From Bdellovibrio bacteriovorus (GTDB lineage: Bacteria; Bdellovibrionota; Bdellovibrionia; Bdellovibrionales; Bdellovibrionaceae), in assembly GCF_001592735.1 (NCBI RefSeq), contig NZ_LUKE01000001.1:248001-312000 (forward strand): a DNA stretch of 64,000 nt, written 5' to 3'. Within the stretch, counting starts at the first letter, position 1. Every line of letters starts with the position of its first letter. Shown one piece after another: positions 58,231-62,381 of the stretch. The position numbers and the translations under genes are program-made. The notes beneath the pieces were generated by a model. The model searched no databases, was not told where the DNA came from, and saw only the letters and a program-made list of their open reading frames with translations.

Positions 58231-58329
58231 GGCCTCACATCCCAGATCTCAATGAATTTTAAGATCTAAAAACGAATCCACTCATATTTGTTAATACCTC
58301 TGTCGCGTGCTTCCTGAGCCATTCTCCGA

Positions 58330-58347
58330 ACCTTCCCGTAGGAAGGT
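58330..58347 (+). repeat. Hairpin in the gap before the L,D-transpeptidase gene
   Basis: ACCTTCC-CGTA-GGAAGGT, a perfect 7-bp stem, in a 214-nt gap. It may end the DUF72 transcript (no T run) or lie in the leader of the next gene. No other element is clear in this gap. Confidence 0.4.
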
Positions 58348-58444
58348 CATGATCTTTGCAACTTTGTTATGAAATTTACCCACACGTAATGAACCTCTCG
58401 TAGTCTTTGTCCACGCACACAAGACTTTAAACGGAGGAAATTTA

Positions 58445-59833
58445 GTGACGAATGAAAATCCACAAACATTCTTCTCACGTTTCAGCATCGCGCTCCTTAT
58501 GACAGCTTCCCTGGCCTTAGCCGCCTGCGGAGCTCAACACGGTGACACCGTGACTCTTCCTGACGATGAAACCGTCGAACAAATCGTTGATACGCCCGAT
58601 ACAACTGAAAAAATAACGGGAGCAGATCCCGACTATAGCGAAGCTGAAGAAGACGCCATTCTTGCTTCTTACGCGCATATCGATCCAACAAACATCGTTC
58701 CAACTCAAGCCTTAAAAGACGCACTTTTGTACTTTAATAAGAACAAGGCAAAGTTTAATAACCAAAACTATATTTCGGTCATCAACTTCGCGCAGAGTTC
58801 AAAAGAAAAACGCTTCTATATTATCAATATAAAATCGGGCGCTGTTTGGGCCATTCACGTCGCTCACGGCAAAGGTTCGGACTCAAACCACGATGGATTC
58901 GCGGAAAAATTTAGTAATGTTTCAGGCTCAAATGCCAGCTCCCTTGGAGCTTACAAAGCCGCAGAAACTTACACCGGCAGCCACGGCCTTTCACTTAGGT
59001 TAGACGGCCTTTCTGCGACGAACTCAAATGCGCGTCGTCGTGCGGTGGTGATCCACGGAGCATCTTACGTTCAAGAATCTAACGTCATTCAAGGCCGCAG
59101 CTGGGGATGCCCGGCGGTCTCCATGGACAATCGCGATGCGGTTGTTAAATATCTTAAAGGCGGAAGCTTGATCTGGGCCGTTACCGACAAAGGAGGGACG
59201 GGACCGGTGGTAAAGCCGACCCCCACTCCGGCACCCACAAATCCACCCGCGAGTGGCTATAAGGTCATGGATTTAGCTTGGACCAACTCTTCTTACCCAG
59301 AAAGAGATGCTTGGTCCAAATACCTGGTAAAGCTTGTTATGGAAGATTGGAACACTTTGCTTGCCGGATCTTCCGACATCAAAGACTTTTGCCCTCATTA
59401 TTATGAACTCGGGTCGCAAGATCGCGCCAATGTTTGGGCTCAACTGGTCGTGGCCATGGCTAAGTACGAAAGTGGTTACAAAGCGACTTCTCGTATGAGA
59501 GAAACCACTATGGGTATTGATCCCGTGACCGGCAGCCAAGTTTGGTCTGAGGGTTTACTGCAACTTTCCTATCAAGATGAAACGGGTTACACATTCTGTG
59601 ATTTTGATTGGAGCCAAGATAGAAACTTAAGCGGTACAGATCCAAAGAAGACCATTCTTGATCCTTATAAAAATCTTCACTGCGGAGTTGGAATCTTAGC
59701 TCGTCAGGTCGCACGAAAAGGGTCGATAAAATTAAGTTCTGGCGTTTACTGGGCCGTCCTTAAAGTGGGCGGTAAGTACGGGAAGACAAACGAAATCGCA
59801 TCCATGGTTCGCGCTCTGCCTATTTGCCAATAA
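58445..59833 (+). CDS. L,D-transpeptidase-like lipoprotein with C-terminal lysozyme-like domain
   Basis: 462 residues from a GTG with GGAGG 7 nt upstream. The signal ends ALAAC with Cys28 at a standard lipobox. Residues 85-250 match the murein L,D-transpeptidase catalytic domain family: VVIHGASYVQES with His204 and GRSWGCPAVS with Cys222, the active nucleophile. A Thr/Pro linker (256-269) leads to a helical domain with VVAMAKYESGYKATSRM (Glu342) and SEGLLQLSYQDETGYTF, like the Glu-x-G/GLMQ core of goose-type lysozymes and lytic transglycosylases. One protein would therefore cut glycan strands and form or exchange peptide cross-links. Confidence 0.8.
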   Translation: MTNENPQTFFSRFSIALLMTASLALAACGAQHGDTVTLPDDETVEQIVDTPDTTEKITGADPDYSEAEEDAILASYAHIDPTNIVPTQALKDALLYFNKNKAKFNNQNYISVINFAQSSKEKRFYIINIKSGAVWAIHVAHGKGSDSNHDGFAEKFSNVSGSNASSLGAYKAAETYTGSHGLSLRLDGLSATNSNARRRAVVIHGASYVQESNVIQGRSWGCPAVSMDNRDAVVKYLKGGSLIWAVTDKGGTGPVVKPTPTPAPTNPPASGYKVMDLAWTNSSYPERDAWSKYLVKLVMEDWNTLLAGSSDIKDFCPHYYELGSQDRANVWAQLVVAMAKYESGYKATSRMRETTMGIDPVTGSQVWSEGLLQLSYQDETGYTFCDFDWSQDRNLSGTDPKKTILDPYKNLHCGVGILARQVARKGSIKLSSGVYWAVLKVGGKYGKTNEIASMVRALPICQ

Positions 59834-61694: not shown

Positions 61695-62381
61695 TTAAAA
61701 CGTTCGTTTTGCACGGATCCAAAGTCTTAATGGAGATAATTCTTTCTCTGTAATCCCAACAAAATGGGTGGTGATTTTATAAAATCCGTCCACACCCGTA
61801 ATCTCTTCGCAGTGATCTACCCGGACCGCCACTTCGCGAATACCAACGTCCCCGAAAATGCTAGAGTGAACGCGCAGAATTTTACCCAAAGGCATCGGGA
61901 CGAGACTTTTAAAGTCCATCCCCAGTTCCGACACCGAAGTGATCTCGGTTTTCGTGTCCCACTCGGCTTGATAATGAACGCGGGCCTGGGCAAAGTGGGC
62001 CGATTCTTCGGGCTTAGTTTTTAAAAGATTCTGAATTTTTGCCAACAGAAGTTCTGGATCTAGAGGCTTCACGACATAATCGTTCACCCCAGATTCAATA
62101 CCTTTTTCAACGTCTTCTTTTTCACGTTTCCCCGTCAACAAGATCACCGGAAGTTTCGCCAAAGCGGGTTCTTTACGAACAGTGCGGGTCAAGGCATAAC
62201 CATCAGCACCACCAGGCATAATCGCATCCGTAATAAGCAAATCCATAGGTTCGCTGGTTAAGACTTTAAGAGCATCCAGCGCATTGGTACAGGCAATAAC
62301 AGCGTACCCCGCCCCCGTCAACAAAGCTTCCAATGTCAGAAGTACACTTTTTTGATCGTCTACGATAAGTATCCGTGCCAA
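61695..62381 (-). CDS. Response regulator with C-terminal PilZ-like domain
   Basis: 228 residues. An N-terminal receiver has ILIVDDQKS, LLITDAIMPGG with the phosphorylated Asp, and LLTGKREKEDVEKGIESGVNDYVVKPL. After a short helix, about 130-228 is a beta-rich domain (SVSELGMDFKSLVPMPLGKILRVHSSIF), which resembles a PilZ barrel; the N-terminal RxxxR of PilZ is not clear, so cyclic-di-GMP binding is doubtful. It may be the output of one of the neighbouring kinases. It lies 34 nt after the kinase gene on its 5' side. Confidence 0.75.
   Translation of the reverse strand: MARILIVDDQKSVLLTLEALLTGAGYAVIACTNALDALKVLTSEPMDLLITDAIMPGGADGYALTRTVRKEPALAKLPVILLTGKREKEDVEKGIESGVNDYVVKPLDPELLLAKIQNLLKTKPEESAHFAQARVHYQAEWDTKTEITSVSELGMDFKSLVPMPLGKILRVHSSIFGDVGIREVAVRVDHCEEITGVDGFYKITTHFVGITEKELSPLRLWIRAKRTF

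Follow-up and report, generated by a model that had tools for sequence, protein, structure and literature searches.

What is the role of a Bdellovibrio protein that carries both an L,D-transpeptidase-type domain and a lysozyme-type domain? L,D-transpeptidation and deacetylation-specific lysis have hitherto been studied separately in Bdellovibrio, and in this protein the two would meet in a single polypeptide. We found no description of the fusion in the open-licence literature, and the available part of PMC11656739 does not mention it.

A single gene encodes both domains

The gene lies in a 64,000-nt stretch of Bdellovibrio bacteriovorus DNA (the window), at 58445..59833 on the plus strand. 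It is a single open frame of 462 amino acids with a GTG start, and a ribosome-binding site (GGAGG, 58433-58437, plus strand) ends 7 nt before the start codon. All of the parts of the protein described here are encoded on the plus strand as well. The protein begins with a signal peptide with a lipobox (LAAC28; 58445..58528, with the codon for Cys28 at 58526-58528), as judged from the sequence and from a lipobox regular expression applied across the orthologues. Next is the L,D-transpeptidase-type domain, a Pfam match to YkuD_2 (PF13645; residues 85-245; 58697..59179). A Thr/Pro linker (residues about 250-270; 59192..59254) varies in both length and sequence between orthologues. The rest of the protein is a Dsl-type lysozyme domain, recognized by a profile match to DslA (PDB:6TA9; residues about 276-462; 59270..59830). 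The initial annotation had placed His204, Cys222, and Glu342 correctly and had noted the linker.

We considered whether the fusion is an artefact of assembly or of a misread frame. Full-length orthologues from 15 more Bdellovibrio genomes, several of which are single-contig, rule this out. These orthologues are 50-68% identical to the window protein.

The protein had also been described as a lipoprotein. By the lipobox regular expression, this is correct for the window protein and for 12 of the 15 others (the cysteine is present in 13 of 16 fusions), but not for the fusions from G012, G015, and G017, which keep both domains. These three (L054, L025, and L024, from genomes presumed to be SKB1291214, ZAP7, and KM01, respectively) are apparently soluble and not lipid-anchored.

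The C-terminal domain resembles the lysozyme DslA

When we compared the window protein by itself to solved structures, the sole match was DslA (6TA9, 6TAD, and 6TAF), across residues 248-461 (E = 5e-14). A profile of 13 fusions matched DslA (6TA9) with E = 7e-43. Pfam's SLT family (PF01464) matches residues 325-426 below its threshold (E = 8e-4, 19.3 bits versus a cut-off of 21.3 bits). Lytic transglycosylases of this type (GH23) have a single catalytic acid and lack a second catalytic glutamate.

Catalysis by DslA needs both E143 and E154 (Harding and colleagues, PMC7511926). We checked the corresponding residues in two alignments, one of 62 lysozyme domains and one of 13 fusions. Glu342-Ser343 (Glu342 is at 59468-59470) aligns with E143-S144 of DslA, the ES motif that includes the general acid, and is invariant in the aligned fusions and in all Dsl-type rows. 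Glu353 (59501-59503) aligns with E154, the second catalytic glutamate, which is on strand beta1; by profile and alignment, no aligned Dsl-type row lacks it. Several other residues are invariant in the aligned fusions: Ser368, which corresponds to S166 of DslA (it holds E154); Tyr435-Trp436 (59747-59752), which corresponds to the specificity pair Y228-W229; and four cysteines, which are predicted to form the disulfides 316/461 and 385/413 (C117-C253 and C182-C199 in DslA, with the pairing taken from the alignment). Y228 adds to the activity of DslA and has been proposed to be a specificity determinant (PMC7511926).

Judging by its sequence, the C-terminal domain is a Dsl-type lysozyme and not a lytic transglycosylase. 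The initial annotation had proposed an L,D-transpeptidase fused to a lysozyme-like domain with Glu342 and the pattern of lytic transglycosylases. Both folds hold up at this level, and Glu342 is conserved, but the transglycosylase label does not hold, given the sub-threshold SLT score and the second glutamate. (Predicted models were poor and were built from shallow alignments: AlphaFold's pLDDT was 38 for the whole protein, with 5 sequences, and 36.5 for the C-terminal domain, with 3 sequences.)

In a phylogenetic tree, the window's domain lies inside the DslB/C clade. Bd1411-type rows, which are missing the second glutamate, are apart from it (100/100). DslB (Bd1413) and DslC (Bd1440) from strain HD100 are about 60% identical to the window's C-terminal domain and share its clade, ES motif, second glutamate, Tyr-Trp pair, and cysteines, but each of the two is a lipoprotein of its own, and neither has a transpeptidase domain. 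DslA (Bd0314; 6TA9, 6TAB, 6TAD, and 6TAF) is about 34% identical. It belongs to the same lysozyme family and has all of the catalytic and specificity residues in common with the window's domain, but it is a lipoprotein of one domain.

DslA, DslB, and DslC prefer GlcNAc-deacetylated peptidoglycan and are deacetylation-specific in vitro (PMC7511926). By analogy to these three enzymes, we infer that the fused lysozyme is specific for GlcNAc-deacetylated wall. This substrate can be made, because the window genome encodes a deacetylase of the Bd3279 type (a full-length match to 5JP6, E = 6e-127).

Two other arrangements of Dsl-type domains are worth recording. In HD100, the presumed Bd1402 L,D-transpeptidase, a Bd1411-type lysozyme, and DslB (Bd1413) share a strand in a stretch of about 10 kb (L047; G003:C1:1318000-1337500), and DslC is some 20 kb beyond this group. 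Also, a 443-amino-acid protein from G052 (L046:1648-2976) has a Dsl-type lysozyme domain after roughly 240 residues with no Pfam match.

The N-terminal domain has a complete YkuD_2 active site

The match to YkuD_2 is far above the threshold (E = 1e-48, 165 bits versus a cut-off of 27), and the active site (H...SWGCP) is complete. The key residues, His204 (59054-59056) and Cys222 (59108-59110), occur in each of the 16 fusions, as well as in all 73 of the other YkuD_2 rows in the alignment. This site does not tell a transpeptidase from a hydrolase. Among YkuD-fold proteins there are hydrolases, such as Bd1075, which is an L,D-carboxypeptidase from Bdellovibrio, and the amidase DpaA (PMC10653827). 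A search by sequence for solved structures related to the YkuD_2 domain gave no relative, and we found no YkuD_2 relatives with biochemical proof in the open-licence literature. Because the structure search gave no solved relative and other YkuD-fold proteins are hydrolytic, cross-linking by the fused domain is an assumption.

The wall of the invaded prey cell is reported to be modified and stabilized by two L,D-transpeptidases, Bd0886 and Bd1176 (reviewed in PMC10482364). Unlike the fusion, these are not reported to have a lysozyme domain. We did not see them among the YkuD_2 matches from HD100 at the positions that their locus numbers suggest, which is a rough guide. Bd0782 and Bd1402 from HD100 and Lpg1697 from Legionella do belong to the same Pfam family as the fused domain, but they are single-domain proteins. 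Where Bd0782 and Bd1402 should lie in HD100, there are YkuD_2 proteins that share 66-71% identity with the fused domain. (As to an origin in phages, the one hit was a distant YkuD_2 gene, beside an integrase, in OQ658363.1 (L180), which is labelled as a Pseudomonas phage; its neighbours look chromosomal.)

Which bacteria encode the fusion?

We identified the full-length fusion in 16 of 24 Bdellovibrio genomes. The carriers include genomes presumed to be B. reynosensis LBG001 (G010), SKB1291214 (G012), NC01 (G014), ZAP7 (G015), and KM01 (G017), as well as two Bdellovibrio sp. MAGs (L009 and L010). The fusion is missing from HD100 (G003, which has a 100% match to DslA) and from genomes presumed to be W (G004), SSB218315 (G006), Tiberius (G008), and kdesi (G009). 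Because HD100 and its clade lack the fusion, invasive predation can proceed without it. Its absence from this model strain also makes it invisible to work on HD100.

No further fusions were seen among 369 genomes of the phylum, with the best four candidates scored per genome. A candidate second fusion in genus g17 (frames of 511-513 amino acids) was rejected: a stop codon divides the two genes. In three genomes from another genus of the family, genes for an L,D-transpeptidase and a Dsl-type enzyme are neighbours, ordered as in the fusion but kept separate by a stop codon.

Besides the fusion, the window genome encodes YkuD_2 paralogues and two DslB/C-like lysozymes as standalone proteins, so the fusion is one of three Dsl-type enzymes in this organism. 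There is no DslA orthologue in the window genome (the best match is 38%). More broadly, at a threshold of E = 1e-40, orthologues of DslA (Bd0314) were not found in G000 (the window genome), G016, G019, G020, or G024 (estimated completeness is 100% for G000 and only 88% for G019). According to the available part of PMC11656739, the DslA cluster is represented in all of the intraperiplasmic Bdellovibrio in that study's set, and the Bd1413/Bd1440 cluster has a single representative in each of KM01, ZAP7, and SKB1291214. In the genomes presumed to be these three strains, the only DslB/C-type domain that we saw is the fused one. The phenotypes of deletions should therefore be readable in these strains, and in the window's organism, with its three Dsl-type enzymes.

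The pairing arose at least twice, and both domains are under purifying selection

The fusion gene is tail to tail with genes for a response regulator (61698..62381, minus strand; a REC domain and an uncharacterized C-terminus, from Pfam) and a hybrid histidine kinase. The regulator, which is the convergent neighbour, serves as a marker for synteny, and this arrangement holds for all of the fusion contigs that could be checked except for G021. HD100, SSB218315, Tiberius, and kdesi have the regulator and the kinase, and the fusion is missing at the locus. In G022, the transpeptidase half is found alone at the fusion's locus. Since it nests among the L,D-transpeptidase halves of fusions, G022 has lost the lysozyme domain.

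The two halves have different histories. The L,D-transpeptidase halves of the 16 fusions fall into one group (89/88), which also takes in some unfused paralogues. In contrast, placing the 16 fused lysozyme domains in a single clade is rejected (p-AU = 8e-65), while one clade for 15 of them, without G025, is not rejected (p-AU = 0.22). The fused lysozyme domain of G025 (L055:6795-8222) groups with DslA (99/100) and is the sister of that genome's own standalone DslA (84% identity, 100/99); we read it as a copy of that DslA. There are two ways to explain this: at the orthologous locus, a DslA-type domain took the place of a DslB-type one, or the DslA-type domain was fused to an L,D-transpeptidase in a separate event. 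With either history, the pairing of an L,D-transpeptidase with a Dsl-type domain was made at least twice. An exchange of one Dsl domain for another at this locus is an argument for selection on the pairing as such.

Estimates of dN/dS by the Nei-Gojobori method are low for both domains. For the L,D-transpeptidase domain, dN/dS is about 0.06 for G019/G020, 0.06 for G015/G017, and 0.01 for G005/G007 (range about 0.01-0.07). For the lysozyme domain, the corresponding values are about 0.02, 0.07, and 0.01 (range 0.006-0.07). For the linker, they are about 0.2, 0.1, and 0.06, which is clearly above either domain. The low values imply strong purifying selection, so both halves are maintained as functional.

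Potential roles of the fusion

Our best reading of the sequence evidence, which we hold with moderate confidence, is that the fusion is a secreted two-domain enzyme that acts on the prey's wall, with stem editing or cross-linking by the L,D-transpeptidase domain coupled to hydrolysis of deacetylated glycan. The protein would be secreted and usually anchored in the outer membrane. The YkuD_2 domain, with Cys222 as the nucleophile and with His204, would act on tetrapeptide stems, giving 3-3 cross-links or stem exchange. The other domain would be an inverting lysozyme (with Glu342 as the acid and Glu353 as the base) that hydrolyzes MurNAc-GlcN bonds, and its cutting would be confined to sites where the predator's own deacetylase had removed the acetyl group from GlcNAc. 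Both activities would be coupled on the wall of the invaded prey. With its transpeptidase half, the protein would stiffen the bdelloplast's deacetylated wall and lock it against lysis by transglycosylases. The attached lysozyme could still cut the locked wall, both to remodel it locally during growth and to allow exit.

Why would the partner be a lysozyme rather than a transglycosylase? Lytic transglycosylases are inhibited by L,D-cross-links, but hen egg-white lysozyme and mutanolysin (which are not Dsl enzymes) are unaffected (Alvarez and colleagues, PMC11390936). If L,D-cross-links block transglycosylases and spare lysozymes in general, this would account for the pairing. Strengthening and opening of the prey's wall may thus be coupled in one molecule, although the fusion of two domains is, by itself, no proof of coupled action. 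The link to predation that the initial annotation had drawn is likely. That annotation had focused on sealing the entry hole or reinforcing the bdelloplast; given the type of lysozyme, coupling could serve entry, maintenance, or exit alike.

More tentatively, and we consider this somewhat unlikely, the two halves might work as a lock and its key. The L,D-transpeptidase would make a wall that is proof against transglycosylases, and the attached domain would be insensitive to the cross-links and specific for deacetylation, so that the predator alone would time the opening of the prey's wall. If so, Dsl-type domains would be alone among glycan-cutting domains in combining insensitivity to these cross-links with specificity for the predator's mark. 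The fusion makes it possible to test whether a predator uses the type of cross-link to control which enzymes cut the prey's wall.

What if the YkuD_2 domain is a hydrolase (an L,D-carboxypeptidase, or an amidase for cross-links or anchors)? Then both stems and deacetylated glycan would be cut, for exit from the prey or for its digestion. The hydrolases Bd1075 and DpaA illustrate that the YkuD fold allows this (PMC10653827), and the Dsl enzymes are lytic (PMC7511926). But the full H...SWGCP site is present, even if it is not diagnostic, and the open-licence literature that we searched gave no member of YkuD_2 with a proven hydrolytic role. Overall, this seems fairly unlikely.

It is improbable that the fusion acts instead on the predator's own wall (in shape, septation, or envelope stress). 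Bd1075, which has the YkuD fold, does work on the wall of Bdellovibrio itself (PMC10653827), and in other bacteria most such enzymes act on self. But we take the predator's wall to be acetylated, and the Dsl enzymes spare acetylated wall (PMC7511926). The patchy distribution of the fusion within the genus also argues against this role.

Another idea is that the L,D-transpeptidase half mainly recognizes stems, or tethers the lysozyme to the wall by a covalent bond, which would keep cutting local; there would be little cross-linking. The three members that keep both domains but lack the lipobox cysteine might benefit from a different way of being retained. But a lipid anchor is already present in most members, and the strict conservation of the catalytic residues and a dN/dS as low as the lysozyme's suggest an active enzyme. 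We consider this quite improbable. Finally, the version in the initial annotation, in which a lytic transglycosylase that leaves anhydro ends is joined to the L,D-transpeptidase, has in its favour the weak SLT match and a GLLQ motif, but it is very improbable, as that match is below the cut-off, the nearest family is DslA, every aligned Dsl-type row retains Glu353, and L,D-cross-linking would inhibit such an enzyme.

The region upstream of the fusion gene

We searched for a sigma-28-type attack-phase promoter upstream of the fusion gene, and the score was no better than for shuffled sequences. The region before the gene (58320-58445 in the window) contains GGTC, repeats that are similar to CCGTAATG, and TAGnnTTTGTnnACGCACA, and is strongly conserved before nearly all of the orthologues. 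Its sequence suggests a promoter or leader dedicated to this gene. The candidate leader or promoter element TAGnnTTTGTnnACGCACA itself (58401..58419, plus strand) is 25 nt before the fusion's start codon and is conserved ahead of almost every orthologue at the locus. G000 and G005 each have one copy of TAGnnTTTGTnnACGCACA, and both copies precede the fusion gene.
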